From positions 1-41,861 of the forward strand of contig CAMDBU010000034.1 of the NCBI GenBank assembly GCA_945889495.1: DNA of 41,861 nt, in the 5' to 3' direction. Within the stretch, counting starts at the first letter, position 1. Each line of letters starts with the position of its first letter. This DNA comes from Syntrophobacter sp. SbD2. Lineage in GTDB: Bacteria > Desulfobacterota > Binatia > UBA9968. Below, piece by piece: positions 328 to 18,136 of the stretch. The notes below the pieces were generated by a model. It saw only the letters and a program-made list of their open reading frames with translations. It made no database searches and was not told where the DNA came from. The translations under genes and the position numbers were made by a program.

Positions 328-1434
328 ATGGCACCGTTACTGAACATCGCAGAAATCCACGGGCATATCTCCAACCGCCTCGACCCGTCGACCATGGCTG
401 GGAAAATGGTCGCCGGCATCATCGGCGATGGGCCGTCGCACTATTCCAAAAGCCCGGCCCTGTGGAATGCCGCGTGCGCCCAGCTCGGCATGAACGCGGT
501 TTACCTACCCTTCGATGTCGACGACGCCCATGTGCGCGATTTACTTCGGCTGTTTCGCGATTCCGAGCAGTTCATCGGCGTCAATGTTACGGTACCGCAC
601 AAAGTGCGGGTGATTGATTTTCTCGACGACCTCGACGCTGGCGCGGCGCGCATCCACGCGGTCAATACCATCGTGCGCAACGACAACGGCCGGCTGATCG
701 GCTACAACACCGACGGCGAAGGCTTCATCGACAGCCTGCTACAACCTAGCCCCGAACAGCCGCAACCGTTCATGAGGTCGCTGGACGGCATCGATGTGCT
801 CTTGCTCGGCGCCGGCGGCTCGGCGCGCGCCGTGGCGTTTCACGTCAGCGACCAGATCGGCCAGGGCCGTTTGATCATTTCCAATCGCACCGTCGCCCAT
901 GGCCAGTCGCTGGCCGATGAAATCAAAAAACTCGGCCGCAACGCGTTGGCCATCGATGAAGAGGGAATTTCCACCTGGGCGCCGAAGGTTGGGCTGATCA
1001 TCAACAGCACGACCAAGGGCCAGGGCGGCATCCGCAAGTTAAACAACGGAATGGCAACCCTGCTCGCCCCCTACTCCGCCCTGGCGCCGGCCAATCCGCC
1101 AGCGCTCAGCGCAGAACTCGGCGACGATTTCGAAGCGCACTGGAATGAAGCGGCGAGAGGGGACATCGAAGCCAACCAGCGCCACTCGGAAACGTTTGCC
1201 GCAAACATTCCTAGCACGACGCGCTTCTACGATCTGATCTACCATCCCGAAGAAACCGTCTTCTTGCGCCACGGCCGACAAACCGGCCACCGCACCATGA
1301 ACGGCAAAAGCATGATCGTCCGCCAGGCGGTCCGCGCCTTTCGCCGTATCTGCCAGCCGCAGCTCGCCCGACTGGGCAAGGACATCGATGAAACCTTCGC
1401 CCAAGTGACCGAAGTGATGTCCCGCGCTTGGTAG
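328..1434 (+). CDS. aroE: Shikimate dehydrogenase family protein
   Basis: Predicted to reduce 3-dehydroshikimate to shikimate with NADPH in the aromatic amino-acid pathway (cytoplasm). Visible family motifs are the substrate-binding SKSP (residues 40-43), NVTVPHK with the catalytic Lys (about 86-92), the NTDGEG loop (127-132), a Rossmann GAGGSAR (161-167) and NRT (186-188). The C-terminal segment from FYDLIYHPEET onward matches the usual AroE end. At 368 aa it is about 90 residues longer than typical AroE. There is extra sequence at the N-terminus, an insertion of roughly 40 residues between the NST motif and FYDLIY, and a C-terminal tail. ATG codons at 394 or 406 would fit the normal AroE start better, so the true start is uncertain. 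It could serve quinate or another related substrate. It stands alone and is flanked by repeats. Confidence 0.85.
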   Translation: MAPLLNIAEIHGHISNRLDPSTMAGKMVAGIIGDGPSHYSKSPALWNAACAQLGMNAVYLPFDVDDAHVRDLLRLFRDSEQFIGVNVTVPHKVRVIDFLDDLDAGAARIHAVNTIVRNDNGRLIGYNTDGEGFIDSLLQPSPEQPQPFMRSLDGIDVLLLGAGGSARAVAFHVSDQIGQGRLIISNRTVAHGQSLADEIKKLGRNALAIDEEGISTWAPKVGLIINSTTKGQGGIRKLNNGMATLLAPYSALAPANPPALSAELGDDFEAHWNEAARGDIEANQRHSETFAANIPSTTRFYDLIYHPEETVFLRHGRQTGHRTMNGKSMIVRQAVRAFRRICQPQLARLGKDIDETFAQVTEVMSRAW

Positions 1435-1510
1435 TTAGGAAAACGATCAGTGCCGCCAAAGGTCCAGGCGCTTCCACGACTGCGACTGATTGAGATCAAG
1501 CCAGAATAAT

Positions 1511-1589
1511 TTTCACCACAGGGACCACAGAGAAAACCATTTTCCGAACCCTCTGTGTTCTCTGTGCCCTCTGTGGTGAAAAATCTTTC
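1511..1589. repeat. Dispersed 'CTCTGTG' palindromic repeat, copy 2
   Basis: The left arm TTTCACCACAGGGACCACAG is nearly the inverse of the right arm ending CCCTCTGTGGTGAAA, so the element can form a long imperfect hairpin. The right arm matches the copy at 222-262. It sits between the convergent aroE-like and ThDP-enzyme genes and might act as a bidirectional terminator. Confidence 0.65.
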
Positions 1590-1644
1590 TGTCCTTTGGT
1601 TGCAATCATGCCGCGCGACGTCATCTCCAGCGAACCAGCATTGA

Positions 1645-3288
1645 TCACTCCCGCATCCGTGACGCCGCGATCTCCCGGCAGGTGACGAATTCCAACAACG
1701 CCGCCTTGCCGTCGTCGGTGACTTTGCGCGCGCGCTTGAAGGCTGCGACGATTTGATTGGGATCTTCGACCCGTTCCGACCAGCCGCCTAGCGACTTCGC
1801 GAGGTCGGCATAATTGCCAAGGATATTCATGGTGCCGTAGCGCTCGTGCGAGGCGTGCATGGCGTGGGTCTCGGCCGCCATAAAGTTGTTGTTCAAGACC
1901 ACGGTCAAGATCGGAATGTTGTTGCGCACCGCGGTTTCGAAATCGAGACCGGTCATGCCGAAGGCCGCGTCGCCCATGAAGTTGACGCAAAATTTTTCCG
2001 GCGCGGCGAGCTTGGCGCCGATGATCAATCCCAAGCCGCCGCCGAGCGCGTGCGACTTGCCCCAGCCGAGATAGCTGCGCGGCACCGGCGCTTGGTAAAA
2101 CGGCACTAATTGATTGCGCGGGCTGCCCGAGTCATGGGTGACGATGACTTCCCGGCGATCGAACAGATTCATGAACTCCCACATCACCCGGTAAGGCGTC
2201 ATCGGCGTTTCGCTGGAGGTGAGCTTGGGCAGCCACTCCGCCAGCCATTCTTCTTTGCCTTTTTTGATCTCCGCCGCCACCGCACCGTCGGCGTCGCGCT
2301 TCTTGCCGCCGAGCAAATCCTTCGCCGCTTCGACAAACTGGCGCAAGACTAATTTGGCGTCGCCGAGGATCGGGTAATCGCAGGGGTACTGCTTGTTGAT
2401 ATCGCGCTCGTCGTTGGTGGCGTGGATGATGATTTTGCCGGCGGGGATCGCCGCCGCCGTGATGTTGTGCTTGGTCAAGCTCGTGCCGATGGCGAGAATC
2501 ACATCGGCCTTTTGCAAAAACGTATGCACCGGCCGCGGCATCACGCCGGCGCCGGTGCCGAGGGACAGCGCATGGTGCTCGGGAAAAGCGCTCTTGCCTT
2601 CCAAAGTGGTGGTCACCGGCAGCTGCGCCAGCTCGGCTAGCTCGATCAATTCATCGGTCGCCTCCGCCCACAGCACGCCCTGGCCGGCGACGATCATCGG
2701 ACATTTCGCCTGCAACAAGACCTTGGCCGCCTCGGCGACATCGCGGACATTGGCGCCGCTGGTAGTGCCCTTGACGGGTGTGTACTTGACCGCGCCGGCA
2801 AATTCTTCAAGCGCGACATCGCCGGGGATCTCCACCATCACCGGCCCCGGCCGGCCCATTTTGAGATAAGTGAACGCACGCCGCATGACTTCGGAAACTT
2901 GATCCGCCGCGGTGAGTTCCTCGATCCACTTGGTAATCGGCGCATAGGACTCCACCGAGCGAAAAAAGTGAAACACCTGAGAGGAACTGCGCGGATGCCC
3001 CACCGGCAAGCACAGCATCGGCACGGAATCGGAATACGCCGTGGCGACGCCAGAGAAAGCGTTTTCCGCCCCCGGCCCCGCCTGCATGGTGAACACGCCA
3101 ATGCGCCGGCCGTTGGTGACGCGAGTGAAGCCGTCGGCAATGCCAACGCCGACCCGCTCCTGCCTGCACACGATGGGACGAATCCCGGCGGTCGCCGCCG
3201 CCTCGATGAGCGGATTGGTCGGATAGCAACTCAGAAACTCGACACCCTCGCGCTTGAGGATTTCACAGATAGCATCGACGACTTTCAT
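1645..3288 (-). CDS. ThDP-dependent enzyme, acetolactate synthase-like family
   Basis: This 547-aa protein has the three-domain layout of thiamine-diphosphate enzymes of the acetolactate synthase, benzoylformate decarboxylase and glyoxylate carboligase group. The N-terminal Pyr domain carries the cofactor-activating Glu in RQERVG (E44). The middle domain is Rossmann-like. The PP domain has the metal/ThDP motif NFMGDAAF (GDA at about 439-441) followed by LNNN (about 465-468). The start at 3288 has GGAGG five bases upstream. The substrate cannot be read from the sequence; genes of this type annotated as 'thiamine pyrophosphate-requiring protein' are common near amide, nitrile or aromatic-acid catabolism genes. 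The first ~30 codons and about 350 bp of upstream DNA are duplicated at 4923-5367. Confidence 0.85.
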   Translation of the reverse strand: MKVVDAICEILKREGVEFLSCYPTNPLIEAAATAGIRPIVCRQERVGVGIADGFTRVTNGRRIGVFTMQAGPGAENAFSGVATAYSDSVPMLCLPVGHPRSSSQVFHFFRSVESYAPITKWIEELTAADQVSEVMRRAFTYLKMGRPGPVMVEIPGDVALEEFAGAVKYTPVKGTTSGANVRDVAEAAKVLLQAKCPMIVAGQGVLWAEATDELIELAELAQLPVTTTLEGKSAFPEHHALSLGTGAGVMPRPVHTFLQKADVILAIGTSLTKHNITAAAIPAGKIIIHATNDERDINKQYPCDYPILGDAKLVLRQFVEAAKDLLGGKKRDADGAVAAEIKKGKEEWLAEWLPKLTSSETPMTPYRVMWEFMNLFDRREVIVTHDSGSPRNQLVPFYQAPVPRSYLGWGKSHALGGGLGLIIGAKLAAPEKFCVNFMGDAAFGMTGLDFETAVRNNIPILTVVLNNNFMAAETHAMHASHERYGTMNILGNYADLAKSLGGWSERVEDPNQIVAAFKRARKVTDDGKAALLEFVTCREIAASRMRE

Positions 3289-3641
3289 AGGGCCTCCAGA
3301 ACTTGGAATTCGCGCGAGCCGGGAAAGCCCGCGCGGAACCGAACAGGATTCTCATAGCACCGAACCGCGGGCGAGCGCCATGAGAAAATCGCCGTGATCG
3401 GCCGGCTGCCCAGCGCGAAGTCGCCGAGGTCATGTTTGCGAATTGGAAACAGCGGGAAGATTGCCGGGCTCGACATCGTGCCGATTCGGGTCGTCGTCGG
3501 TGATATTCGCCTATTGATCGCAAGGATCGTCAAACGGTGCAGCTATCTGGGAGTATCTAATCTCGCTCGGCGTAGTGTTGTTTATCGCCTCCGCTACGGT
3601 CGATCCTTCGTCAATTCAACTTTGTCCAGCTAATCAACAAC
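3203..3641. repeat. Direct repeat A: 5' end and upstream region of the ThDP-enzyme gene
   Basis: This ~440-bp stretch covers the first ~28 codons of the ThDP gene and its upstream region. It aligns in the same orientation with 4923-5367. Long shared blocks include the start-codon region, 'CATAGCACCGAACCGC', 'GAGAAAATCGCCGTGA', 'GACATCGTGCC' and 'GGGAGTATCTAATCTC', with scattered substitutions and small indels. By eye about four in five bases agree. The two copies abut the two ends of the DUF1016 module. Apart from the gene start and this repeat I see no gene in 3289-3646. Confidence 0.85.
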
Positions 3642-3646
3642 GTCCC

Positions 3647-4807
3647 CTAATTTCGTCCCTTGCCCATGATTTCCTGATGCTTGGCATGAAGGAATTTCTC
3701 CAGCTCCTCCTTCGTCGGCAGTTCCACCGCGTATTTGGAGACGAAGAGGCGGTTGTCCATGCTGGCAATGGCGTATCACACCAGCGCGTGATCCTTGCCG
3801 GTGCAGAACAGCAGGCCCACCGGCGGATTGTCGCCCTCAGCCATCATGTGCTGGCGATACCAGGTGACGTAGGTATTGATCTGGCCGAGATGTTCATGTT
3901 TGAAGTCGTCCACCTTCAGCTCCACCAGCACATGGCATTTCAAGACGCGGTGGTAAAAGACCAGGTCCACAAAGCCGCGCGTCTTGCCGATGAGAATGCT
4001 TTTCTGCTGCGCCTCCAAACAAAAACCATGCCCCAGCTCAAGCAGGAACTCGCGCAGATTCTCAAGCAGCGCCGCCTCGAGATTGGATTCCGTCATGGCA
4101 TCCTTGGCGCGCAGACCGAGGAACTCGAAGATATAGGGATCGCGGATGGCAAGTTTTGGCTCTGAGGCCTCCACTCCCTTGTGCACCATCGCCGCCAGCT
4201 TCTCCTTGTCCTTCGACAGCCCGGAGCGCTCGAAATACAGCGTGGCGATCTGGCGCTTCAGCGCCCGCACGGACCAATTGCCACGAATACACTCGATCTC
4301 GTAAAAGGCGCGTTTCAGCGGGTCTTCGATCTCGATCAGTTCGGCGAAATGGCTGAAGGACAGGCTGTCGACAAGCTTTTTCCCTGTCAGGGCGAATTGT
4401 GGAGACGCTGTCTCCCGAATGGCCGGGACGAAAAGCAGCGCGGAGGTGAATTCGGGAGACAGCGTCTCCCGAAACAGCGGGTAGGACAGGTAAAAGGCCC
4501 GATACCTTCGCAACTCGCGCTCATCCATCCTCCGAAGTCCTATCTTTTCGAGTCGTTCGGCGAGCCTGGCCAGTAGTTCATCGCCGTACTTCGCGCGGTC
4601 TTGGCCATTCAGTTCGTAGTGGTGGATGTAGCCGCCGATGATCCAGTTGCGAAGTGTCAGCGTGGTGTTGACTGCACGGTTTACGGCGGCGGCGCTATCC
4701 TCATGGACCCGTTGGATCGCCTTCACCAGTGCGGCGAAATCCAAAGCTCCGACGCTGCCCCTAGCGAAGCGGGGTCTTGTGACGGGGGTCTTCTTCTTCG
4801 CGGACAA
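3647..4807 (-). pseudogene. DUF1016/YhcG-type PD-(D/E)XK nuclease gene with internal TGA
   Basis: YhcG-type proteins pair an N-terminal DUF1016 helical domain with a C-terminal PD-(D/E)XK nuclease fold and commonly sit in restriction and mobile islands. Here the N-terminal domain is recognisable (WIIGGYIHHYELNGQDRAKYG and following) and the nuclease core is present: FVDLVF with D281 and VELK with E296/K298. Translation starts at TTG 4807, with GGAGG about nine bases upstream inside the preceding ORF, and stops at TGA 3776-3778 after 343 aa. The same frame continues for 42 more sense codons to TAG 3647-3649. These encode YAIASMDNRLFVSKY... and ...TKEELEKFL..., which is the normal C-terminal helix of the family. 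One substitution (for example CGA to TGA) would explain it. The truncated product keeps all catalytic residues and may still fold. Confidence 0.8.
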
Positions 4808-4810
4808 GGC

Positions 4811-5008
4811 TCAGTCCTCCGCTTCGCTTTGCGTGTCGCGGCCGAGGCGGTATTTGATGTCGTAGTTCAGGATGAAATCCAAATCCTCCGCCATGAACCC
4901 GTAGTGCCCCGCCAGCACCGCGTCGATGAGCGGATTGGTCGGATGGCAGTTTAAGAACTCGACACCCTCGCGCTTGCGAATCTCACAGATCGCATCGACG
5001 ACTTTCAT
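4811..5008 (-). pseudogene. Chimeric 65-aa ORF: ThDP-enzyme N-terminus fused to a DNA-methylase-like tail
   Basis: Residues 1-30 copy the start of the ThDP enzyme (MKVVDAICEI... CHPTNPLIDA). From about residue 32 the sequence switches to GHYGFMAEDLDFILNYDIKY, which I recognise as resembling the extreme C-terminus of Eco57I-like or N6-adenine DNA methylases; that assignment is from memory. The join is at about 4917-4923, the edge of direct repeat B. A GGAG ribosome site precedes the ATG at 5008. The TGA at 4811 lies three bases before the TTG start of the DUF1016 gene, whose ribosome site is inside this ORF, so the two would be translationally coupled. It is probably non-functional as a protein but may act as a leader for the nuclease gene. 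Confidence 0.6.
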
Positions 5009-5367
5009 GGGGCTCCAGGAATTGCAATTCACGCGAGCCGGGAAAGCCCGAGCGAAACCGAACAGGAATCTCATAGCACCGAACCGCTGGCGAGCGCCAT
5101 GAGAAAATCGCCGTGAGCGGTCGGTTGCCCACCGCGAAGTCGCCGAGGTCATGTTCGCGAATTGGTAACAGGATGGAGATTCATCATACAGGCAGTCGAC
5201 ATCGTGCCTGCTCTGGTCGTCGTCGGTGATATTTGGCTATCGATCGCACGGATCGTCAAGCAATGCAGCTAGCTGGGAGTATCTAATCTCTTTCGGCGTA
5301 TTGTCGTTTATTGACTCCGATGCGGCCAACTCTTCGTCACTTCAAAATTGTCCCGGTAATCAACAAC
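4923..5367. repeat. Direct repeat B: diverged copy of the ThDP-gene 5' region
   Basis: Second copy of the ~440-bp block at 3203-3641, in the same orientation. It holds a complete start codon at 5008 with an SD-like GGAG, and the upstream sequence that probably carries the promoter of the ThDP gene. At its low end it joins a methylase-like tail; at its high end, near GTTGTTGATTA (reverse strand), it joins an HsdR-like relic. Nothing else that looks like a gene is visible in 5009-5367. Confidence 0.85.
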
Positions 5368-5487
5368 TTCGTCTGGTTGCTGCTTTCTTGCAAAGTCGCC
5401 AATGACCGCCCGCGTGCTCGCGTCCATCTGTTCGATGGGCGTGCCGCTAAAGTCGATGAACAACGAATTCGCTGAGTCATCCCGCCG
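5368..5487 (-). pseudogene. Relic of a type I restriction HsdR-like helicase
   Basis: In one minus-strand frame, bounded upstream by TAA (5488-5490), the sequence reads DSANSLFIDFSGTPIEQMD followed by ASTRAVIGDF. The 'F.GFTGTPIE.TD..TRAVFGDYI' pattern is characteristic of the helicase region of HsdR subunits of type I restriction enzymes. Only about 35 codons remain. There is no start codon, and the frame runs straight into direct repeat B. I read it as a decayed fragment left by deletion. The family assignment rests on the motif alone. Confidence 0.5.
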
Positions 5488-5502
5488 TTAAGTCGCGAAA
5501 CG

Positions 5503-7377
5503 CTATTGTAGATTGGCGAGAGCCCTCATTTCGGTAAACCAACCGATCACATGGCCATCGGGATCGACTTGATCCAGACGAGCTTTAGTCATCGAGGAAG
5601 ATGCGTGCTCGTTGAGGATGCGCTTAGCCTTTGAGACCTTCTTGCCACGCGTTTCTAAGTCGAGTGCAGCCCATGCGTTAGGACTCCCTGATGCAGCGTG
5701 GACCATTTCAGCAATCTTGATAGGAACGTCATCAAACGCAGCGAAATTCGCCGCCAAGCCAAGCTTGATGTCACAAACCCGAGCGTAGGCTTCGTTAATC
5801 GCATCATGATGAAGGTAATTCTCCATCTCCTTTTTCCCGGTCACGACGGCTTTGCATCGTGCCCTGAGGTTGATCGCGTCGGCTTCGGCCTGATACTTTG
5901 CGACTGCTGGTGGCAATTCATCCCTGTCAAATAGATGGAATTCAGGCCGCGCCAATCGCTCAAGCCGGGAGGTCCAAAGCGCCAACGACGACCCACCCAA
6001 GGGGAAGAAAATCAATCCCCCCTCCAGTTCCATCTTTTCCAAGTCGAGCACGTCGCAACCAGCTTCCTGGAGCATCTTTGCCATGTGCTTCAGGAAAGTG
6101 ATATCGTGCCGCCCCTCCACACCGACGAACAGCTTGATGGAGTTATCGGGCAGCACGCCCAGCGATGAAGCACACAGCTTGTTGGTTTCTCCGCCTCCGG
6201 GGAGAACTTCCCGCGACTTATCAGGTTTCAGGTGAATATATCGCAAGCATTTGTCCGGGAGAGTGCGTGCCAACATTGGAGTATGCGTCGTGATGACCAC
6301 CTGATTGTCAGTGGCCAAATCCATCAGTGCGGTGATAAGAAGACGTTGATTGTGCGGATGCTGACTCGTCTCTGGTTCTTCGATGCCATAGATCACTGGG
6401 GCGTTATTCCTCTCACGGGACTGCTGTTCAGCTTTTGCTCGAAAGAAATTCAGCAAGACTAACCTCTTCACCCCGCTTCCTCGCTTGTTAATGGGAATGT
6501 CTTCGTCACCAGTAATGCTGACGTTGAACAGCGTGTCCCATTTCTTGAGGACAATTTGAGGGTTCAGTTGCTGCGCAAGAGATTCATCCATCTCTTTAAG
6601 CTTATCCAACGTCGCCTGTGCAATTCGGCGAACTTCAGTTTCGACGTGCGCGGCGATCGCGTTCAGTTCGGCTTCTCGCTGCTTGATTGCCTCTTTGACC
6701 GCGGACTTCAAAGGGTCCTGCGCTTCGGGATCCTGGTCGGTACTAGCACGGTCAGATTTGAACAGCGCCAATAGGGGCACATGAATCTTAATCTTGTCCC
6801 ACGATTTATTCGTTTTGTCCTCGTTGAGAGGAACAAGAACCGGGCTGAGTTTCAAATCGCCAACCGTCTCGCGGATACGCTGCCTCAATTGAGCGTTCAC
6901 CTTTTGGTCGATGCCAGTCAGGTCGACTTTCAGCTTTTCCGCTTGCTTTTTTAACTCCGGGTTCTTCAGTTGTAGCAGGTCTGCAACTCCGTCAGCAGTT
7001 GGATGAACAGCAAAGGCGGCGACGCTCGTGCACTTCGGCGTCGAGAGATGGTCGCTGAATGTCTTGTGAATCTCCAATCTCCCAGCCTCATTGAGGAGAT
7101 ACTCTACCGAAAATGATGTCGGGTTGTCTTCGTCGATAACCACGCTGGCAGGAAGATCAGCAAACTCACAGATGATTGTAAGGTCCTTGCCATCGCCATC
7201 CTTCGATGCGTCGTGCTTGTCCGGCGAACCTTCGTTCAGGAATATGTCGAGGGCATCCATCACGGTTGACTTGCCGACATCATTCTTGCCGACGAAGGCC
7301 GTCATGTCGTCGAAATCGAATACGGCTTCATTCTTGTAACAGCGGAAATTCCTGATTCTAAGGCGTGTAAGTTTCAT
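5503..7377 (-). CDS. OLD-family ATP-dependent nuclease (AAA15 ATPase plus TOPRIM)
   Basis: This 624-aa protein has an N-terminal SMC/RecF-like ABC ATPase: MKLTRLRIRNF opening, Walker A GKNDVGKST (30-38), Walker B region IEEPE (332-336) and switch THTP (364-367), with a coiled, charged middle. A C-terminal TOPRIM nuclease half follows, with VEGRHD (420-425) and FDRDE (D484, D486). OLD-type proteins cleave or degrade DNA and act in phage defence (P2 Old, Gabija GajA). No UvrD/GajB helicase is adjacent, so a class 1 OLD is more likely than Gabija. A fused PARIS-like AriA/AriB arrangement is an alternative I cannot exclude. The gene starts ten bases after the stop of the BsuBI/PstI-like ORF and appears intact, unlike its neighbours. 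Confidence 0.8.
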   Translation of the reverse strand: MKLTRLRIRNFRCYKNEAVFDFDDMTAFVGKNDVGKSTVMDALDIFLNEGSPDKHDASKDGDGKDLTIICEFADLPASVVIDEDNPTSFSVEYLLNEAGRLEIHKTFSDHLSTPKCTSVAAFAVHPTADGVADLLQLKNPELKKQAEKLKVDLTGIDQKVNAQLRQRIRETVGDLKLSPVLVPLNEDKTNKSWDKIKIHVPLLALFKSDRASTDQDPEAQDPLKSAVKEAIKQREAELNAIAAHVETEVRRIAQATLDKLKEMDESLAQQLNPQIVLKKWDTLFNVSITGDEDIPINKRGSGVKRLVLLNFFRAKAEQQSRERNNAPVIYGIEEPETSQHPHNQRLLITALMDLATDNQVVITTHTPMLARTLPDKCLRYIHLKPDKSREVLPGGGETNKLCASSLGVLPDNSIKLFVGVEGRHDITFLKHMAKMLQEAGCDVLDLEKMELEGGLIFFPLGGSSLALWTSRLERLARPEFHLFDRDELPPAVAKYQAEADAINLRARCKAVVTGKKEMENYLHHDAINEAYARVCDIKLGLAANFAAFDDVPIKIAEMVHAASGSPNAWAALDLETRGKKVSKAKRILNEHASSSMTKARLDQVDPDGHVIGWFTEMRALANLQ

Positions 7378-7387
7378 ACTGGTGCGC

Positions 7388-7984
7388 TCATATGTTTTTC
7401 GGCATCACATCCGCATACGGCCCAAGAAACCGTTCGCCGTTGAAATGGATCATGTGGTCGGGGTCTTCAGCGATCCAGACTTCGGATTCCCAGGCGATGT
7501 GCGAGACGAAGGTCTGCATGGTGCGGCGGTTTTCGAAGGCGGTGACGAACACGAGTCCCGCTTTGCAGCCAACGAACAGGTCTTTGAGTTCCTTGCGCCG
7601 CTTGCCGTCCACCGGGCCGGCGCTGGTGACGGCTTCGATGAGCAGCAGCCAGTTCTTGGCGCGGTAGTGGACGATGACATCGGGAATCTTGGCGGCGGAA
7701 TCCAAGGTGACGCCGAGCGCCGCCAAGGCTTTTGAATTGAGATGGACAACCTTGCTCCTGGCATCGCGGATGCCGAGGATTGCTGCACCGGGAGTCCAGC
7801 GGGCGCTGAATACCTCAATGATGGCTTTCACGAGAAGCCCCCAACGATCTCTTGAAGTGCTGCGGCTAGCGCCCCGGCGCGGCTGGCTCAATGACGCCAT
7901 GAAGTCAGCCACAGGTGTCGCGGTGAGAAACTGCCCGAGTTCCTCCTGGCGACTTCTGGGCTTTTCTATGGCCGCGATTTTCAT
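7388..7984 (-). pseudogene. Chimera: methylase N-terminal stub fused to BsuBI/PstI-type nuclease domain
   Basis: Residues 1-35 (RQEELGQFLTATPVADFMAS region) look like the start of a type II N6-adenine methylase, whose usual opening is 'ELGQFLTP..VA.FMASLF'. After a low-complexity join (SQPRRGASRSTSRDR) the rest matches the C-terminal catalytic domain of BsuBI/PstI restriction endonucleases: KIPDVIVHY, NWLLLIEAVTSAGPVDGKR with an ExV-type active-site strand, GLVFVTAF and HFNGERFLGPY. The helical N-terminal domain of that nuclease family is missing. A deletion joining adjacent methylase and endonuclease genes would produce this. Without a methylase in the window an active nuclease would be self-toxic, so loss of function is likely, though the C-terminal catalytic domain itself looks complete. 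Confidence 0.65.
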
Positions 7985-8087
7985 GTCGTCATGCTACCAA
8001 GCTGAGTTCCGTCTCGCCAGCGAACAAACGGGCAGCGTTCGCAGAATCGAGCGTGGCCAGGTGCTTCGGGGCGCCGCGACCGAGGTC

Positions 8088-8525
8088 TTATGATTTCCTT
8101 TTACGTCTTGGCTTCTGCATGATCTGTTTATCTGCCCAACCAACGACGGTTTTCGCCATGGCGACGGCGACACGATATTCCTTCTCGCTCACGGGTTCCG
8201 TAACGCCGGGATACCGCGTTTCTACGGCATAGTCGCTAAGATCGACGGCTTCCCAGATTTCCCCAGGAATCGGATCGCCGCCGGAATTCAACAGGGTCAA
8301 GAGCTCTCTAAGATCGTGGGTTTTGCGAAACTCAAGCTGACGGAAAACCAAAACAGCCTTGATCGCTTTCTCTGCCGCCTGTTGCGCGTCAAAACAGAGG
8401 TCTTCCCAGAAAGCCTCCTTGGGCTTTTTCTGCCTGGCCCTTGCTAGATTGCCTTTAGCCCGTCGCAGCCAGTCCTCCGGTTTGCCGGTGAAACCGGTCC
8501 TAGGCGGCATAAAGAACCTTTCCAT
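8088..8525 (-). CDS. HEPN domain protein (partner of MNT nucleotidyltransferase)
   Basis: A 145-aa all-helical protein with the HEPN signature features WLRRAKGNLARAR, CFDAQQAAEKAIKAVL, THDLRELL and YAVETRYPG. In HEPN/MNT modules the HEPN protein is the toxin (often an RNase) and the MNT protein inactivates it by nucleotidylation. I do not see a clean R-X4-6-H RNase motif, so activity is uncertain. The start at 8525 lies inside the end of the MNT gene (26-bp overlap). A second ATG at 8510 is possible. It belongs to the defence and toxin cluster that includes the OLD and RM relics. Confidence 0.8.
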   Translation of the reverse strand: MERFFMPPRTGFTGKPEDWLRRAKGNLARARQKKPKEAFWEDLCFDAQQAAEKAIKAVLVFRQLEFRKTHDLRELLTLLNSGGDPIPGEIWEAVDLSDYAVETRYPGVTEPVSEKEYRVAVAMAKTVVGWADKQIMQKPRRKRKS

Positions 8526-8817
8526 CTCTCAGCGCCGGACGATAAATGAGACCTATCGAATCTCTGTAGCGCTCGATGTCTTCCGGTTTCGCTACAATGA
8601 TATCTATGGGAACACCGATGCCAAAGAGCTCGCGCCGAATCTTCCGAGCGGTGTTCCGGCGATGATCGCAAGCCGCGACGACCAGAATATCAAGGTCGCT
8701 GTCCGGTCCCATCTCGCCGCGCGCCGCGGAACCGAAGATGATGATACTCTCCGGCTTGGCCGCCTTCACTATGCGCCGGACGATTTCATCAAGCACCTTT
8801 TGATTTACTTTCGCCAT
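8500..8817 (-). CDS. MNT-type minimal nucleotidyltransferase
   Basis: A 105-aa polymerase-beta-fold nucleotidyltransferase. The signature GSAARGEMGPDSDLD contains G29-S30 and D41/D43 in exact G-S-x10-D-x-D spacing. It is probably the antitoxin of the HEPN gene that overlaps its 3' end, acting by transferring nucleotides to the toxin. The ATG at 8817 is chosen because homology begins there (MAKVNQKVLDEI); the frame is open further upstream but that extension is not family-like. Confidence 0.85.
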   Translation of the reverse strand: MAKVNQKVLDEIVRRIVKAAKPESIIIFGSAARGEMGPDSDLDILVVAACDHRRNTARKIRRELFGIGVPIDIIVAKPEDIERYRDSIGLIYRPALRDGKVLYAA

Positions 8818-8915
8818 TGTCTTTCTCCCGACACAGCGATCATAGCATACATAATTCGATTGTCCTGCACTGACGACGACATGGAGCTCCGCCGCCGGGA
8901 GGAGTCTGACATTTT

Positions 8916-9269
8916 CTAGTGTTGGTGGGCGTCCGTCTTTGGCTGGCTCTTTTCCGCTTGGCCTTTTGCCGGAAGGTCGGAGGATTTTTTCTCCGGTGTC
9001 TCGACAGCCATTTTCTCTTTCATCTTTTCCATCATTTTGGCCTTCATTTCGGGCGTCATTCCACTTTTCATCGGCATGTCTCCCTTCATCTCGCCCATCT
9101 TCTCCATCCCCTCGCAGCATTTCATGGCGTCGGATTTCGCCGGCACATCGGCTTTCGTCGCCGGCGCTTTCGGTGCTGCCTTAGGCGCTTCATGTTTATG
9201 TTCTTGCGCGACCGCCGTGCCGCTCGTCCAGACAAGACTCAACAGCACAGCCATGGATAAATTTTTCAT
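8916..9269 (-). CDS. Secreted Met/Lys/His-rich protein, probable periplasmic copper binder
   Basis: A 117-aa protein with an N-terminal signal peptide (MKNLSMAVLLSLVWTSGTAVAQ, cleavage near AVA-QE). The mature part is low complexity with many Met residues (CCEGMEKMGEMKGDMPMKSGM, MKAKMMEKMKEKM), a CC pair, His in QEHKHE and a DAHQH tail. Such Met-rich proteins bind Cu(I)/Ag(I). AAGGAG lies about four bases before the ATG. It is last in the cusCBA-type operon, 17 bp after the end of cusA. Function is inferred from composition and neighbours. Confidence 0.75.
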   Translation of the reverse strand: MKNLSMAVLLSLVWTSGTAVAQEHKHEAPKAAPKAPATKADVPAKSDAMKCCEGMEKMGEMKGDMPMKSGMTPEMKAKMMEKMKEKMAVETPEKKSSDLPAKGQAEKSQPKTDAHQH

Positions 9270-9286
9270 CTGCGCTCCTTATCGTC

Positions 9287-12200
9287 CTATGCCGGCTCAC
9301 CCGGCGCCACGGTTTGGTCTGTCGACTGAGATCTTCTCAAGCTCCAGCCACGCCAGACTTCGTAAATCGCCGGATAGACCAGCAGCTCGAGGATGAACGA
9401 GGTCGTCACCCCGCCGATCATCGGCGCGGCGATGCGCTTCATCACGTCGGCACCGGCGCCATGGCTCCACATGATCGGCAGTAAGCCCATCAGGATCGCC
9501 ATGATGGTCATCACCTTGGGCCGGATGCGCTTGACCGCGCCTTCGACGATCGCCTCCTTCAAGTCTGCGAGATTGCGCATGCGCCCATCCTGGCGCGCTT
9601 TGTCGTAGGCGTGCTCCAGATAGAGCAGCATGATCACGCCGGTTTCGGCGTCGACGCCGGCCAAGGCGATGATGCCGACCCACACGGCGACGCTCAGGTT
9701 ATAATCGAGCAGATAAAGTAACCAGACCGCGCCGATCAGCGAGAACGGCACTGCCAAGAGCACCAGCATGCAGCGCGCCACCGACTTGAAGTTGACGTAG
9801 AGCAAGAGAAAAATAATCAGCAAGGTCAAAGGCACGACGTAAATCAAGCGCTCTTTGGCGCGTTGCATGTATTCATACTGGCCGCTCCATACCAGTGTGT
9901 AGCCGACCGGAATATTGACTTGCGCGGCAATCTTTTTTTGCGCTTCTTCGACGTAGCCGCCGATGTCCCGGCCGGTCATGTCGACGAAAACATAACCGGC
10001 CAGTTGACCATCCTCGTCCCGGATCATCGCCGGCCCGGAGGTGAGTTTGATGTCGGCCAATTGGCCGAGCGGAATCTGCGCGCCGTTCATCGTTGGGATC
10101 AGCACCCGTGCCAACTTGCCGATATCGTCGCGCAGCTCGCGGGCGTAGCGCACGCTAACCGAGTAACGCTCTCGGCCCTCCACCGTTGTCGTGATGCTCT
10201 CGCCGCCGATGGCGGTCTCGATGACCATCTGCACCTCGTCGAGCGCCAGACCATAGCGGGCGATCTCTTCGCGCTTCAAGTCGAAGTCGAGGTAGTAACC
10301 GCTCATCACCCTTTCGGCATAGACCGAGCGGGTGCCCGGGATGGTTTGCAGGTGCGCTTCAATGTTCTTGCCGATCTCCTCGATCTTGGCCAAGTCGGGG
10401 CCGAAGATTTTGACGCCGACCGGGGTGCGAATGCCGGTGGAAAGCATATCGATGCGGTTCTTGATCGGCATGGTCCAGGCATTGACCACGCCGGTGAGCC
10501 GAACCTTCTTGTCCATTTCGGCAACCAGCTCGTCCCATGTCAGCGCCCGAGCGGGGCTCAAAATCAGTTCGCCGAGATAACGAAAAGGTTGCGGCCAGTG
10601 CGACCGATCGACGGGCACTCGGCGCCACTGGGATTCCGGCTTCAGCATCACCGTGGTCTCGCCCATGCTGAAGGGCGCCGGGTCGGTGGAAGTCTCCGCC
10701 CTGCCGCTCTTACCCAAAACCCATTCCACCTCGGGGAAACTCTTTAAGATCCGATCTTGGATCTGCACCAGCATGGCCGCTTGTGTGGTCGATATTCCCG
10801 GCAGCGTCGTCGGCATGTAATAGATCATGCCCTCGTTGAGCGGCGGCATGAACTCGCTGCCCAAGCGCATGAACGCCGGCACGGTCAGGATGAGCGCGAC
10901 CAGCGCCAACGCGATGGTGCTCTTTCTAAACCGCAGCACCCAATGAATCGCCGGCATGTAGAGGGCGATCAGAAACCGGTTGACCGGATTGTTGGCTTCC
11001 GGGCGAATCCGGCCGCGCACCAGCGTCACTAACAGCACCGGCGCCAAGGTGATCGACAGAAACGCGGCGAAGAACATGGCGAAGGTTTTGGTATAGGCCA
11101 GCGGTTTAAAAAGTCTGCCCTCCTGGCCCTCCAAGGTAAAGATCGGCAGAAACGACACGGTGATGATGAGCAGCGAAAAAAACAGCGGTTTGCCGACTTC
11201 CTTGGCCGCGTCGATGAGCACCTCGGTGCGGTCGCCGGGCCGGCCCTCTTCCTCCCAGCGCTCGAGCTTTTTGTGGGCGTTCTCGACCATGATGATCGCG
11301 GCGTCGACCATGGCGCCGATGGCGATGGCGATGCCGCCGAGCGACATGATGTTGGTGGTCAAGTTGAGAAAATGCATGGCGATAAACGAGCCGAGGATGG
11401 CGATCGGCAACGTGATAATGACGACCAGGGCGCTCGGCAGGTGGAACAGAAACACGATGATGACGACGCTGACGATGACGATTTCCTCGATCAACTTTTC
11501 TTTGAGAGTGGCGATGGATTTAAGGATCAGATCGGAACGGTCATAGGCGGTGACGATCTTTACGCCGGGCGGCAAAGAGGGCTCGATCTCGGTGATTTTT
11601 TTCTTAACCCGTTCGATCAGATTGAGCGCGTTCTCGCCGTAGCGCATGACCACGACGCCGCTAACCACCTCGCCTTCGCCGTTTAACTCGGCGATGCCGC
11701 GCCGCATATCCGGCCCGAGGGCCACCTGACCGATGTCGCGCACCAGGATCGGCGTGCCACGGTCACCACCGACGGCGATCATCTCGATGTCTTTGATGGA
11801 TTTTATATAGCCGCGGCCGCGCACCATGTACTCCGCGCCGCTCAGTTCGATGGAACGACCGCCGACGTCGTTGTTGCTCATGCGAATGGCATCGGCGACA
11901 GTCTTGACCGGCAGCCGATAAGCCGAAAGTTTGTTGGGATCTAAGTTGACCTGATATTGGCGCACAAAGCCGCCCAGACTGGCAACCTCGGCGACGCCTT
12001 CAACGGCGCCGATTTGATAGCGCAGGTACCAATCCTGCAGCGAGCGTAGTTGCGCCAGGTCGTGCTTGCCGCTCTTATCCACCAGGGCGTATTGAAAGAC
12101 CCAGCCAACCCCGGTGGCATCCGGCCCCAACGTTGGGGTGACGCCGCGGGGCAGCCGGCTCTGCACTTGGTTCATGTACTCGAGCACGCGGCTGCGCGCC

Positions 12201-12514
12201 CAATAGATATCCGTGCCGTCCTCGAAAATGATGTAGACGTAGGAGAAGCCGAAGTCGGAAAAGCCGCGCACGAACTTGACCTTGGGCGCCGAGATCATGG
12301 CGCTGACGATCGGGTAAGTGACCTGGTCTTCCATGATCGTCGGGTTGCGTCCCATCCAGGTGGTATAGACGATGACCTGGACATCGGAGAGATCGGGCAC
12401 CGCGTCGAGCGGCGTGTTCTTCAGCGCCCAGATTCCGCCGGCACTGAGAAAAAACACCATGAAAAAAACCAGAAACTTATTTTTCGCGCTGCCGGCGATA
12501 ATTTTTTCAATCAT
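9287..12514 (-). CDS. cusA: Heavy-metal RND efflux pump, inner-membrane subunit (CusA-type)
   Basis: A 1075-aa HME-RND transporter that would pump Cu(I)/Ag(I) from periplasm or cytoplasm through a CusB-CusC channel using the proton gradient. Seen: TM1 near residue 15 followed by DAVPDLSDVQVIV, two large periplasmic loops, and the central TM motif GAMVDAAIIMVENAH (near residue 405) with the Asp needed for proton relay. Also present are the Met-bearing pore segment EGMIYYMPTTLPGIST and a matching second TM half (GVDAETGVIMLLYLEHAYD). Length and motifs match CusA/SilA rather than CzcA. Its ATG lies ten bases after the cusB stop, with an AAGG element at that stop. Confidence 0.92.
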   Translation of the reverse strand: MIEKIIAGSAKNKFLVFFMVFFLSAGGIWALKNTPLDAVPDLSDVQVIVYTTWMGRNPTIMEDQVTYPIVSAMISAPKVKFVRGFSDFGFSYVYIIFEDGTDIYWARSRVLEYMNQVQSRLPRGVTPTLGPDATGVGWVFQYALVDKSGKHDLAQLRSLQDWYLRYQIGAVEGVAEVASLGGFVRQYQVNLDPNKLSAYRLPVKTVADAIRMSNNDVGGRSIELSGAEYMVRGRGYIKSIKDIEMIAVGGDRGTPILVRDIGQVALGPDMRRGIAELNGEGEVVSGVVVMRYGENALNLIERVKKKITEIEPSLPPGVKIVTAYDRSDLILKSIATLKEKLIEEIVIVSVVIIVFLFHLPSALVVIITLPIAILGSFIAMHFLNLTTNIMSLGGIAIAIGAMVDAAIIMVENAHKKLERWEEEGRPGDRTEVLIDAAKEVGKPLFFSLLIITVSFLPIFTLEGQEGRLFKPLAYTKTFAMFFAAFLSITLAPVLLVTLVRGRIRPEANNPVNRFLIALYMPAIHWVLRFRKSTIALALVALILTVPAFMRLGSEFMPPLNEGMIYYMPTTLPGISTTQAAMLVQIQDRILKSFPEVEWVLGKSGRAETSTDPAPFSMGETTVMLKPESQWRRVPVDRSHWPQPFRYLGELILSPARALTWDELVAEMDKKVRLTGVVNAWTMPIKNRIDMLSTGIRTPVGVKIFGPDLAKIEEIGKNIEAHLQTIPGTRSVYAERVMSGYYLDFDLKREEIARYGLALDEVQMVIETAIGGESITTTVEGRERYSVSVRYARELRDDIGKLARVLIPTMNGAQIPLGQLADIKLTSGPAMIRDEDGQLAGYVFVDMTGRDIGGYVEEAQKKIAAQVNIPVGYTLVWSGQYEYMQRAKERLIYVVPLTLLIIFLLLYVNFKSVARCMLVLLAVPFSLIGAVWLLYLLDYNLSVAVWVGIIALAGVDAETGVIMLLYLEHAYDKARQDGRMRNLADLKEAIVEGAVKRIRPKVMTIMAILMGLLPIMWSHGAGADVMKRIAAPMIGGVTTSFILELLVYPAIYEVWRGWSLRRSQSTDQTVAPGEPA

Positions 12515-12523
12515 GGTGTGGCC

Positions 12524-14062
12524 TTACTGAGCGGTAACCGTAAACTTTCCCTGCACCGGTTTTTGCCCTGGGCGCTGCACCGAGACGGCGATCTCCCAGG
12601 CTCCCGCCATGGCGAGACTGACACTCGCCTGGTAAACACCGTCTTTGACATGCTTCGCCAGTGCCTTACCGGCGGCCATGCCCGGCATCGCCATCGTCGA
12701 GGTGAGATTGACGGTGGCGTCTGACACCGCCGCGCCCTTGGCGTCGCGAATCTTGATGCGAATGACGTTGTCGCCGGGCTTCGGCTTGACCGGTTGGGAT
12801 TCAAGAGAGAGCGTCAGGTCGCCGGCCTTTCTCTCGGTTACGGCGGCGGCGGCTGGCGCTTTCTTTGGCGTCTCGCCCATATCCATACCCGCCATCGCGC
12901 CCATCGCCTCGGTGAGCCGGCTTTCCGAATCCAGCAGGAAACTTGCGCTCGCGATAATTCGTTCTCCTGCAGAGAGGCCTCCGAGAACTTCGTAGTAGCC
13001 GTCGAATTTGCCGCCGAGCTTGACCTCGGCAGGCGCGTAGCGCCCTTCGCCTTTGTCGACAAAGACAATTTTTCGGATGCCGGAATCCAACACCGCCTCA
13101 TCGGGGATGGCCAACTTTTTGCCGCCGTCCACTTCGATCTCGACATTGGCGTACATTTCCGGCTTGAGCTTGAAGTCGCGATTGGCGAACTCGAGACGAA
13201 CCTTGGTGGTGCGGGTTTTTTCATCGAGCACCGGCGCGACCCACGCGACCTTCCCGGAAAATGTTTGGCCGGGAAAGTAGGACAGGGAGATCGTCGCCCT
13301 CTGACCCAAACGGATATTGGCGAGCTCATATTCGTAAATATCCGCATTCACCCAAACCGTGGACAGATCGGTGATGGTATAGAGCTCCTTGTCCGGCATG
13401 ACCTTCATTCCCTGGGCCGCGTCTTTCTTGATCACGAAGCCGCTGATTGGCGAAAAGAAAGTGAGCGTGCGCTGCGGTTGACCATTTTTTTGCAGCTCGG
13501 CAATCTGTGCCTCGGAAATGTCCCAGAGCGCGAGCCGGCGGCGCGCCGCTTCGAGCAACGAAGCCGAGCCCAGGCTGATCTCCTTGAGCGAGCTCGATCC
13601 GAGGGTTTCTTGGGCGCGCAGCGCCAAGAGAAACTCTTCTTGAGTTGAAACCAACTCCGGGCTGTAGAAGGTAAAAAGCGGTTGTCCCTTTTCCACCAGC
13701 TTGCCGGTGTAATTGACGAACAGTTTTTCAATCCAACCGTCCACTTTGCTGAACACCTGCGCCACTTTGGTCTCGTCATAGGTAACGATGCCGACGGTTC
13801 TGATTTTCTTGACTAGGGGTCGGGCCTCCGCTACCGCGGTGCGGATGCCGACCAGCTGCTGCTTTTCCGGACTGACGGTGACGCCGCCCGACGACATGTC
13901 GTGCCCGGCCATCGCGTCGTTTCCAGGTTTCGACTCGGCCGACGGCTTCGCTGCGGATTCCATCGCGCGGTCGGCGGAAACATGGCTCTGGCCGTTCCAG
14001 TAGCCGATGGCGAACACGCCGACTAGGATGACCAGCAGCCCGAGTATTTTTACGCTTTTCAT
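12524..14062 (-). CDS. cusB: RND periplasmic adaptor (CusB-type) with C-terminal FixH/YtkA-like domain
   Basis: A 512-aa membrane fusion protein anchored by an N-terminal segment (residues 5-22). The CusB core runs from about 60 to 390: VSPEKQQLVGIRT, YDETKVAQVFSKVDGWIEKL (barrel-sandwich), coiled hairpin (STQEEFLLALRAQETL), FVIKKDAAQGMKV and beta-barrel (SYFPGQTFSGKVAWV). After a linker containing MAGMDMGE comes an added ~90-residue beta domain (KPKPGDNVIRIKIRD, AMPGM, MAGAWEIAVSV). It resembles FixH/YtkA-like domains and carries Met residues that could bind copper. Ordinary CusB lacks this tail. A MAGHDMSS stretch near residue 52 is also Met/His-bearing. GAGAGGGG precedes the ATG. Confidence 0.9.
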   Translation of the reverse strand: MKSVKILGLLVILVGVFAIGYWNGQSHVSADRAMESAAKPSAESKPGNDAMAGHDMSSGGVTVSPEKQQLVGIRTAVAEARPLVKKIRTVGIVTYDETKVAQVFSKVDGWIEKLFVNYTGKLVEKGQPLFTFYSPELVSTQEEFLLALRAQETLGSSSLKEISLGSASLLEAARRRLALWDISEAQIAELQKNGQPQRTLTFFSPISGFVIKKDAAQGMKVMPDKELYTITDLSTVWVNADIYEYELANIRLGQRATISLSYFPGQTFSGKVAWVAPVLDEKTRTTKVRLEFANRDFKLKPEMYANVEIEVDGGKKLAIPDEAVLDSGIRKIVFVDKGEGRYAPAEVKLGGKFDGYYEVLGGLSAGERIIASASFLLDSESRLTEAMGAMAGMDMGETPKKAPAAAAVTERKAGDLTLSLESQPVKPKPGDNVIRIKIRDAKGAAVSDATVNLTSTMAMPGMAAGKALAKHVKDGVYQASVSLAMAGAWEIAVSVQRPGQKPVQGKFTVTAQ

Positions 14063-14097
14063 AAACCCCTCTCCGTTAGTGCGCTCGCCCGCGGTTG

Positions 14098-15390
14098 TTA
14101 TTGCAGCTCCTTGCCGACGATGCGCTCCAAGTCGGACAAGTTTTGAACCAATGCCACCGTCGCTTTGTAGTATCCCATGCGCGCCTCGCGCAGGGCGCGC
14201 TGGGCTTCTAACAACGTGACGAATTCCACCCGGCCGGTCTGATAGGCGGCCATGGCCGAGCGAAAGGATAACTCGGCCTGGGTCAACAGCCCCTCATTGA
14301 AAAGCGTCATCGAGCGCCGCGCCGCTTGCGCTTTCGCCTGGGACTCCGCCACTTCTCGCACCGTCAAGTTTCTCATCGCATCCCGGTTCGCCTTGGCGGC
14401 GCGAATTTCGGCGAGGCTTTCATCAACTTCGTGGTTGCGCCGGCCGATGGTCCAGGGCGAGAACGGAATGGTGATATTGACCATGGCGCCGTAGCGGTTT
14501 TTTTTCATTTCCATCGGCATCCGCATGTAATCCCAACCGACCATGAAGTCAGGGAATTTACGGTTGCGGTCCGCCAGCTCATAGATTCTTTCGCCGCGAA
14601 CGATCTCCGCCTCCGCGCTTTTCAATTGTGGGCGATTAGCCAACGCCAACGTATCGAGACCGGGGAAATTCAGATCTACGCTCGGGGTCGCGAGGTCTGC
14701 CGGTAACTGAACCGGCGATCGCGGCGAACGATACATGGCGCTGTTCAATTTCGCCTGGGCGGCGCTGCCTTCGGCTTCGACACCGATCAGTTGATTCATG
14801 ATCTCGCTCTGTTCCAACAACGCTTTGAAGACATCCTGTTGCGTGACCCGGCCGACCTGATAACGCGCTTCGGTGGCGCGGATGATCGTTCCCATGATCT
14901 CCAACTGTTCACGCAATATCTCGCCGGCCTTTTGCGCCATGAACAGATCGGCGTAGGCCATTTTGACCATGGAGATAATCTCTCGCTCCTTGGCGCGCAG
15001 CTCCTGCTCCATCACCCGCACATCCTGTTGGGCGATTTTTTCTTTCAAGCCCAGTTTGCCGAAAAACGGCAACTTCTGGCGGATGCCGATGGAGTTGGTA
15101 TCGGAACCATTAAAGTTCGTTGGATTCGCCAGCGGCACGCCGCCAAGCTGAAAATTAATCTCCGGGTCCTCCAGATACGGCGCCTGCTTGGCGCGCGCCG
15201 ACACCGCTTCCAAGCGCTGGCGCAGGAACTGAATCTCGGGATTTTTTTCGACCGCTTCTTGAACCGCCGCGGCGAGTTTCAAATGACCGTCGGCTTGCGC
15301 ACCCCAAGCCCAAGATGAACCCGATGCGCCTATTGCGGCCAACATCAGATTAAAAAACACTCTGACCAAACTTACCCGCGCTTTGATCAT
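14098..15390 (-). CDS. cusC: TolC-family outer-membrane channel (CusC-type)
   Basis: A 430-aa outer-membrane efflux protein with an N-terminal signal peptide and two TolC repeats: EAVEKNPEIQFLRQRLEAV and DLNFPGLDTLALANRPQLKSAEAEI each start a repeat. It has long amphipathic helices and ends in VQNLSDLERIVG. It should be the exit duct for the CusA/CusB pump encoded just downstream. GGAGGTTCTT precedes the ATG. The 35-bp gap to cusB fits one operon. Unlike many CusC proteins no lipobox cysteine is visible. Confidence 0.85.
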   Translation of the reverse strand: MIKARVSLVRVFFNLMLAAIGASGSSWAWGAQADGHLKLAAAVQEAVEKNPEIQFLRQRLEAVSARAKQAPYLEDPEINFQLGGVPLANPTNFNGSDTNSIGIRQKLPFFGKLGLKEKIAQQDVRVMEQELRAKEREIISMVKMAYADLFMAQKAGEILREQLEIMGTIIRATEARYQVGRVTQQDVFKALLEQSEIMNQLIGVEAEGSAAQAKLNSAMYRSPRSPVQLPADLATPSVDLNFPGLDTLALANRPQLKSAEAEIVRGERIYELADRNRKFPDFMVGWDYMRMPMEMKKNRYGAMVNITIPFSPWTIGRRNHEVDESLAEIRAAKANRDAMRNLTVREVAESQAKAQAARRSMTLFNEGLLTQAELSFRSAMAAYQTGRVEFVTLLEAQRALREARMGYYKATVALVQNLSDLERIVGKELQ

Positions 15391-15454
15391 AAGAACCTCC
15401 GAACCGGCTCCCCGGCGAGAGCCGGTCCATCGACTACGATAGTCAAGCGAACTC

Positions 15455-15805
15455 TTACTTCGCCTCAGCCGCCATTTGCCGATGCGCTTCGACCATCCCC
15501 AAGTTATCCTTCGCCGCCTGCTCGTAAACCCGAATCAAGCCCTGGCAATGGCTGATGAGACTCGAAGCCTGCTTGCCATAGAAGCCCTTATTAGCCTCAT
15601 ATTGGGCGAGCAATTTTTTGTGCTCCGCGGCCTTGGCCTGCATGTCTTTGGCGGCATCGTCATAATGCTTGGCCAAACTATCGTGGTCGCTCCGGGTCTT
15701 GGCGCTTTGCACCGCTTGGGTCATATCCATCGGGTGCGGGTTGATCGCGCAGGAGCCCAAGAAGCCGAGACTCGCTACCAACATCAAAGCAGTTAAAGTT
15801 TTCAT
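15455..15805 (-). CDS. Small lipoprotein of metal-resistance cluster
   Basis: A 116-aa protein with a lipoprotein signal peptide ending LGSC (Cys at residue 19), then a helical, Lys/Gln-rich body (AKHYDDAAKDMQAKAAEHKKLL, YGKQASSLISHCQGLIRVYEQ). A strong GGAGG lies six bases before the ATG. Similar short lipoproteins occur beside cus genes, but I know no assigned function. It would depend on Lgt, which is encoded further upstream in the same island. Confidence 0.75.
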   Translation of the reverse strand: MKTLTALMLVASLGFLGSCAINPHPMDMTQAVQSAKTRSDHDSLAKHYDDAAKDMQAKAAEHKKLLAQYEANKGFYGKQASSLISHCQGLIRVYEQAAKDNLGMVEAHRQMAAEAK

Positions 15806-15901
15806 AACATCCTCCTTTTGCCGACTGCTACCGAACCGTATTTCGCACCATTGGTTATCTGCCGGTTATCAGCTGCACATAATCAACCACCTCCCTCTTA
15901 A

Positions 15902-16776: not shown

Positions 16777-16824
16777 GCTTTCCTCCATAGTTCGTGAATA
16801 TGCATGATCGCCTCCCACGCTCAG

Positions 16825-17244: not shown

Positions 17245-17382
17245 GTTAAGCTCCCTTTTTGATTTATTGATTCGTATCTCACTTTTCACAATTCAGACTC
17301 GCGCTGTGCCAGCCGCCGCTCCCAGCGAGCATTGCCGAATACAGTGCGCCCTCAGGCTTTCTGAAACCCATCGCTTGGCTAC

Positions 17383-17544: not shown

Positions 17545-17686
17545 TTGGAAGTTTTCTCCTTTCGGCAAACTAATTCACACGGTGAAATCGACGATACGGA
17601 AAGAATCGATCGACGCGATCATATCCGTCACCTCGTTGCCAACTCACCACTTCAAACGCCTGAGACCATGGCAAGCCTCGCCTTAT

Positions 17687-18109: not shown

Positions 18110-18136
18110 CGTGGCTCTCCTTGCCTGTCAGCGCTT

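Follow-up and report, generated by a model that had tools for sequence, protein, structure and literature searches.

The insertion of restriction-modification genes with a long target duplication was reportedly first described by Nobusato et al. in 2000. The available parts of PMC3031569 and PMC4978471 describe such insertions, in which restriction-modification genes enter a site together with long duplications of the target, and the available part of PMC5361080 proposes homology-facilitated illegitimate recombination with sequential displacement for Vibrio type VI secretion system (T6SS) effectors and, for Rhs loci, refers to orphaned 3' regions that occur in strings. A further relevant arrangement is that of the REP-associated Y1 transposases (RAYTs), whose gene lies between inverted REPs (PMC2817692, available part). 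Here we compare with these systems a pair of direct repeats in a 41,861-nucleotide stretch of Syntrophobacter sp. SbD2 (contig CAMDBU010000034.1, hereafter the window), where two diverged copies of the start of a gene for a thiamine diphosphate (ThDP)-dependent enzyme enclose a DUF1016 nuclease gene and an orphan methyltransferase tail. The reading that we favor, and to which we give about an even chance, is that the repeat pair would be an old scar of one-sided illegitimate recombination at the edge of a defense island. The repeat may record a known kind of event, and the orphan tail, which recurs in other genomes, may be the new part.

Repeat search and pairwise alignment placed the two copies, in the same orientation, at 3198-3644 (copy A) and 4918-5370 (copy B). 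Their global alignment has 454 columns, with 380 identities (84%), 66 mismatches and 8 gap columns; searched for without gaps, the repeat falls into three direct pairs with spacings of 1719, 1726 and 1720 bp. When the genome itself was searched (5.64 Mb, 239 contigs) the second copy was recovered at E = 9.9e-140 and no third copy of the block was listed, which excludes chance. An earlier note on this DNA had described a ~440-bp block present twice in the same orientation, and the aligned copies bear this out at that E-value, with the left edges it gave (3203 and 4923) correct to within 5 bases; the divergence that it put at one base in five is real, but amounts to about one in six. The whole block is far more similar than chance would give, and the identity, looked for in the DUF1016 module, does not extend into it; the homology ends within a few bases of 3644 and 5370. 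The suggestion that the two copies offer a route for deletion is possible but weak, as their longest uninterrupted match is 28 nt.

Each copy, followed on the minus strand from right to left, consists of a REP-like terminus, the start of a dead Y1 frame, upstream DNA, and the ThDP start with 28 codons. Copy A continues into the intact ThDP gene (1645..3288, minus strand, 547 aa; Pfam TPP_enzyme N, M and C, and NCBIfam NF004807 above its cut-off), and copy B (minus strand), which is decaying, is cut after codon 28 and has a few bases shortened or altered at its terminus. Copy A (minus strand) is the native locus, being resident and collinear with G009, the nearest relative by this locus, which matches 410-1434 and 1644-3397 on one contig (C155) with 87.5% DNA identity over the latter interval, the ThDP gene region. 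The last 109 bp of the non-RAYT upstream DNA in the block are also common to G009. A paralogous ThDP gene was considered as the source of copy B and rejected, the best paralogue in the genome having 38% protein identity and no other DNA match being listed.

The earlier note took the block for the 5' region of the metabolic gene, which is right for the ThDP part and wrong for the right ~180 bp of both copies, which are a RAYT relic with the RAYT terminus at the right edge. In copy A this relic (3464..3649, minus strand) comprises the REP-like end GGGGACGTTGTTGATTAGC and the start of a dead reading frame. It is similar to several places in the genomes G013 and G014, and 3468-3649 has a 69% DNA match on contig C58 of G014, where it falls at the 5' end of an intact transposase gene encoding 324 aa (Pfam Y1_Tnp PF01797, E 3e-09). 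On contig C115 of G013, inverted copies of the end sequence (L042 10490-10304 and 11336-11363) flank a whole transposase gene (10374-11345), which is the arrangement given in the available part of PMC2817692. The window thus resembles a RAYT in that its relic corresponds to the 5' part of a Y1 transposase that is intact elsewhere, the full element in G013 being bounded by inverted end copies, and it differs in that a single end and a dead 5' part are what remain. A tblastn search of the window with a whole RAYT at loose limits gave only noise among the matches listed. The complete 447-bp block was rejected as a mobile element, since it has only two genomic places and relatives match its ThDP and RAYT parts at different places.

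Between the copies lie, as had been claimed, the nuclease gene and the methylase tail, placed there by Pfam and PADLOC matches. The DUF1016/YhcG PDDEXK nuclease gene (3647..4807, minus strand) has a TTG start, and its protein matches Pfam DUF1016_N (6.9e-27) and YhcG_C (6.8e-41) and PADLOC PDC-S02 (E 1.5e-109). PADLOC lists PDC-S02 among known and candidate systems, and an anti-phage role is putative here. After an in-frame TGA at 3776-3778, on which the earlier note is silent, a further 42 codons lead to a TAG at 3647-3649. This point is no more than about 2 codons from that at which an ortholog (L068) ends, and the RAYT terminus follows directly. The window gene therefore shares both Pfam domains with the candidate defense nuclease PDC-S02/DUF1016 (YhcG), but its last 42 codons are cut off by the TGA and it is linked to an orphan methyltransferase tail. 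It also holds a perfect 20-bp inverted repeat (4401-4420 and 4450-4469) with 29 nt between the arms.

The orphan tail (4811..4924, minus strand; ~37 codons and a stop) is the C-terminus of a Type IIG/Eco57I-type methyltransferase, and its stop lies 3 nt before the DUF1016 start. It matches the PADLOC Type IIG profile PDLC03628 at positions 1065-1098 of 1100 (E 4.3e-11), and since these positions are all that is left of a methyltransferase and nuclease body we classify it as a Type IIG remnant and not as a member. Whole PDLC03628-type proteins, annotated as DNA methyltransferases, are encoded on plasmids of Pelobacter (1088 aa, the gene directly after a helicase-related gene) and Synechocystis (1100 aa); the name slr6095 was dropped for the latter, as the available part of PMC7296061 calls slr6095 a Type I M subunit. 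At the joint with copy B (4913..4933, minus strand; sequence read directly) ThDP codon 28 passes in frame into the tail (...NPLI-DAVLAGHYGF), and the bases ATCGA at this point are common to ThDP (CTCATCGAG) and several tails of other genera (AAATCGACC). The tail-DUF1016 unit is also present on contig C344 of G014 with other DNA upstream (84% over 366 bp).

To place the split between the copies, A, B and G009 were compared over the ~200 bp alignable among all three. In the upstream part 70 sites were the same, 27 were changed only in G009, 5 only in B and 2 only in A, with 2 all different and 5 gap columns; the coding part gave 76 same, 4 G009-only, 8 B-only, 2 A-only and 1 all different. For the RAYT part, counted only at sites where two intact RAYT relatives agree, the figures were 98 same, 44 common to A and B, 8 A-only and 27 B-only, where the 44 common sites may have arisen by decay that preceded the split or may belong to another RAYT subfamily. 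Pooled lineage-specific changes number 12 for A and 40 for B (binomial P 1e-4), B having changed about three times faster. These counts, with A and B grouped against G009, therefore indicate that the A/B split is later than the split from G009 and that B is the less constrained copy. The earlier judgment that this is not a simple recent target duplication is upheld, the copies being 16% diverged and one of them changing faster.

Codons 2-28 of B carry 5 silent changes and 3 replacements, L11R, S20N and Y22H, which fall where none of the 8 other sequences compared varies, and the same codons of A show no replacement and 6 silent changes relative to G009. Three or fewer replacements among 8 neutral changes has a probability of 0.02-0.05, and 3 is few for a copy that would have been dead ever since the split. 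Small as the numbers are, this mixed pattern would fit alleles that had diverged slightly before B was truncated.

Under the recombination reading that we favor, one version of the locus would have been ordered methyltransferase-DUF1016-RAYT-ThDP and another island genes-RAYT-ThDP, the two being either alleles from closely related genomes or duplicates in a single genome. A single event, with a homology anchor on one side and a few shared bases (perhaps ATCGA) joined on the other, would have set the RAYT-ThDP start of the second version before the methyltransferase tail of the first, with loss of the methyltransferase body. The nuclease gene would have retained the tail, perhaps since DUF1016 starts 3 nt past the methyltransferase stop, and copy B would have decayed after the event. 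Several results support this sequence: the block occurs in two places only, 84% identical, with A collinear with G009 on both of the intervals given above (410-1434 and 1644-3397); A and B agree against the intact RAYTs at the 44 sites and group against G009; B carries L11R, S20N and Y22H at invariant positions; the tail-DUF1016 unit exists with other upstream DNA in G014; the G009 contigs end near the edges of 3398-19643, with little of 3645-9120 in that genome; and 4 of 7 intact methyltransferase genes have a frame start within 23 nt of their stop. The event would resemble the Vibrio T6SS displacement, as presented in the available part of PMC5361080, in its one homologous anchor, one illegitimate joint and retention of the displaced gene's downstream partner, but here the displaced gene is a methyltransferase, the partner kept is a defense gene, and the parent arrangement was not seen.

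A number of observations weigh against this scheme. Neither parent arrangement was found in any genome, so that the order of events is itself deduced, and the empty site was not seen joined in G009, whose contigs end at both edges. The ATCGA microhomology is suggestive only, because the closest tail, that of G014:C344, reads AATCAAAAG without ATCGA, and it was judged against tails from other genera. Part of the agreement of A and B at the 44 sites may come from another RAYT subfamily, and the codon counts are small (3 replacement, 5 silent), with a contrast to A/G009 that is not significant (Fisher P 0.21). Furthermore, the window comes from a draft assembly, and Ku was not found in the genome itself (G000), which speaks against classical non-homologous end joining. 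Ku-dependent end joining was rejected as a candidate, Ku being found in 10 of the 25 family genomes and not in G000, G008, G009 or G010.

The earlier note had named two possibilities, recombination of a relative's DNA and an old tandem duplication, and this is the right pair of rivals, neither of them proven; import and in-place duplication cannot be separated, and a donor, if any, would be nearer than G009 because, over the ~200 bp compared, G009 is much further from A and B than these are from one another. The main rival, which we consider rather unlikely, is an in-place tandem duplication from the methyltransferase tail to ThDP codon 28, followed by a deletion that took out the outer DUF1016 and methyltransferase as far as the RAYT terminus in copy B. 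It would explain through common events both the joint of ThDP codon 28 with the tail and the abutment of DUF1016 on the RAYT, and it agrees with the closeness of A and B relative to G009 and with the loss or alteration of a few bases where copy B ends beside the HsdR fragment. Its second event, however, must end by accident at the RAYT terminus, and the silent excess in B (3 versus 5; P 0.02-0.05) hints at divergence while B was in a working gene. Both this scheme and one-sided recombination require methyltransferase-DUF1016 beside RAYT-ThDP, and such a version was not found among the genomes searched.

An insertion with long target duplication, in which the tail-DUF1016 unit (~1.27 kb) entered an HsdR-RAYT-ThDP site and duplicated 447 bp, appears distinctly improbable to us. 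The geometry fits, as defense or restriction DNA lies between two long direct copies of the flank, and the available parts of PMC3031569 and PMC4978471 provide the precedent for restriction-modification genes; against these stand copies that are old (16% diverged), an empty target or empty allele that was not seen, and an insert that starts with a truncated methyltransferase, an accessory nuclease with a methyltransferase remnant instead of a complete restriction-modification unit. This may nonetheless be the same event as one-sided recombination, described differently. Still less credible is a RAYT-driven one-ended transposition, in which a transposase acting on the REP-like end carried the RAYT and adjoining ThDP DNA into the methyltransferase gene. 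In both copies the right edge falls on the RAYT terminus, and relatives of the transposase are present in 25 of the 25 family genomes searched, but the terminus may merely limit the homology, the window RAYT is dead and 5'-only, and no REP was seen at the ThDP end. The draft state of the genome (239 contigs) leaves an assembly artifact, which we regard as the least plausible explanation in view of the 66 differences between A and B, a joint that shares few bases only and the recurrence of the tail-DUF1016 linkage in G014.

Searching 25 family genomes with the full-length methyltransferase profile resulted in 16 matches, 10 of which are isolated short fragments, all at positions 1056-1099; the other six come from a gene truncated at the end of its contig (positions 8-476) and from three long frames that were matched in pieces (1059, 1028 and 589 aa). 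A search of 395 phylum genomes, with the 38-residue tail itself as the query, gave 26 matches in 20 genomes. Among the 20 matches with E < 1e-10, 7 belong to long open frames (865-1117 aa), for 2 the body is present in a broken frame, 1 is truncated where its contig ends and 10, including the tail of the window, are bodiless, that is, with no body in the available upstream DNA. The two sets together hold 19 distinct orphan tails, for which at least 333 bases of upstream DNA were examined (333 for G013:C117, 369 for G297, 569 for the first tail of G014:C373, 680 for G022:C168 and >1 kb for the other 15). Excluded from this number were G245 and G296:C21 (84050), with a methyltransferase body upstream in a broken frame; G209:C550, whose contig starts 31 bases before the match; matches with E above 1e-10 (G164 twice, G235, G040, G105 and the second of G146:C127); and a partial copy (L209 5720-5758). 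No other 34-residue window of the protein is as well conserved as the tail (0.88 identity between two members, with two other regions at 0.79), which makes tails easier to detect than other fragments. The 19 are not all independent, because six tails in four genomes (L194, L187, L197, L192, L188 and L193) carry one to four 24-nt units like CCTTCGACTCAGCTCAGGGCAGGC at about one site, showing that some copies are related.

In 11 of the 19 orphan tails a frame of at least 100 codons starts from -19 to +39 nt of the tail stop; at random positions in the same loci, such a frame start was present in 391 of 7200 cases (5.4%). The 11 partners are DUF1016 (4, the window included, with G013:C117 assigned by its similarity to G014:C373), SLFN_AlbA (2), Bro-N (2), Fic (1), AAA_21 (1) and one protein without a Pfam match. 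Partners further off are AAA_21 at +99, DUF4258 at +80 and DarT at +118, and no such frame is listed for the remaining five, two of which (G014:C449 and the second of G296:C21) continue in frame into other sequence. For the intact methyltransferase genes, the 4 of 7 with a frame start within 23 nt of the stop leave 3 of 7 without one. Contig C373 of G014 (L208) has two tails, at 570-689 before SLFN_AlbA and at 2661-2790 before DUF1016; with the tails ~2 kb apart and a further frame after them, 570-4472 forms an array of tail-plus-partner units. In G013:C496 (L209, 1-3081) a helicase gene is followed by ~770 bp with dispersed repeats and, after these, an orphan methyltransferase tail, an arrangement that looks like replacement of the methyltransferase body. 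The left edges of the orphan tails vary, for which reason a site-specific cut within the methyltransferase was rejected as their source, and no description of such methyltransferase-tail remnants was found in the literature among matches judged by title and start of abstract.

The pattern of orphan tails resembles the orphaned 3' ends that would follow from sequential displacement in T6SS and Rhs loci. We propose, tentatively and with the balance somewhat against it, that the Type IIG 3' tail may be a recurring exchange joint of defense islands, at which repeated displacement of the methyltransferase would leave tail-plus-partner units, sometimes in strings, the tail being kept as a start signal or translational coupling for the partner or as a short stretch of homology that serves later exchanges. 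If so, the window would show one such unit between two copies of the start of a metabolic gene. The window is a readable case of the growth and decay of a defense island beside a housekeeping gene, and the orphan tail is a searchable signature that could show which defense genes were once partners of a lost methyltransferase. Repeated use of the tail as an exchange joint, if true, would help to explain the diversity of genes behind these methyltransferases, comparable to what has been proposed for orphan immunity genes in T6SS arrays.

The flanking DNA to the right of copy B begins with a short, weakly matching HsdR-like fragment of Type I restriction (5371..5463, minus strand; PADLOC PDLC03040 E 0.0041, NCBIfam TIGR00348 E 0.067), of which 26 residues also match in L122 (E 1e-06 within the 80 loci searched). 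It is followed by an AAA_15/OLD-like ATPase gene of the defense island (5503..7377, minus strand; Pfam AAA_15 2.5e-74, PADLOC AriA 9.1e-64) and by the C-terminal part of a BsuBI/PstI restriction endonuclease (7388..7984, minus strand; Pfam BsuBI_PstI_RE 2.9e-51). The N-terminus of the latter is methyltransferase-like (ELGQFLTATPVADFMASL; PADLOC MTase_II PDLC03227, residues 10-35, E 0.0014), and the gene looks like an internally deleted methyltransferase-nuclease fusion.

These genes belong to a stretch of ~16 kb (3398-19643) with defense and efflux-type genes, which lies between two stretches that match G009. The second of these is covered by another G009 contig (C81) in five further blocks from 19644 to 41600, and both contigs, C155 and C81, stop close to the edges of the stretch. 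Within G009, 3645-9120 is represented by the ThDP part and a 61-bp stretch only (40 of 61 candidates scored), and 9121-19643 by a 40-bp stretch on another contig only (40 of 116 candidates scored). Because G009 shows almost none of 3645-19643, the ~16-kb island is variable. In 10 other relatives the similarity ends close to the start codon of the ThDP gene (3282-3298). Additionally, at 8088-9120 (minus strand) a HEPN protein adjoins a nucleotidyltransferase, which we take to be a toxin-antitoxin-like pair. At the other side of the ThDP gene, a short repeat around CTCTGTGCCCTCTGTGGTGAAA is present in both orientations at 221-268, 1505-1537 and 1547-1594, and also at other loci of the same genome, among them L024 and L028.

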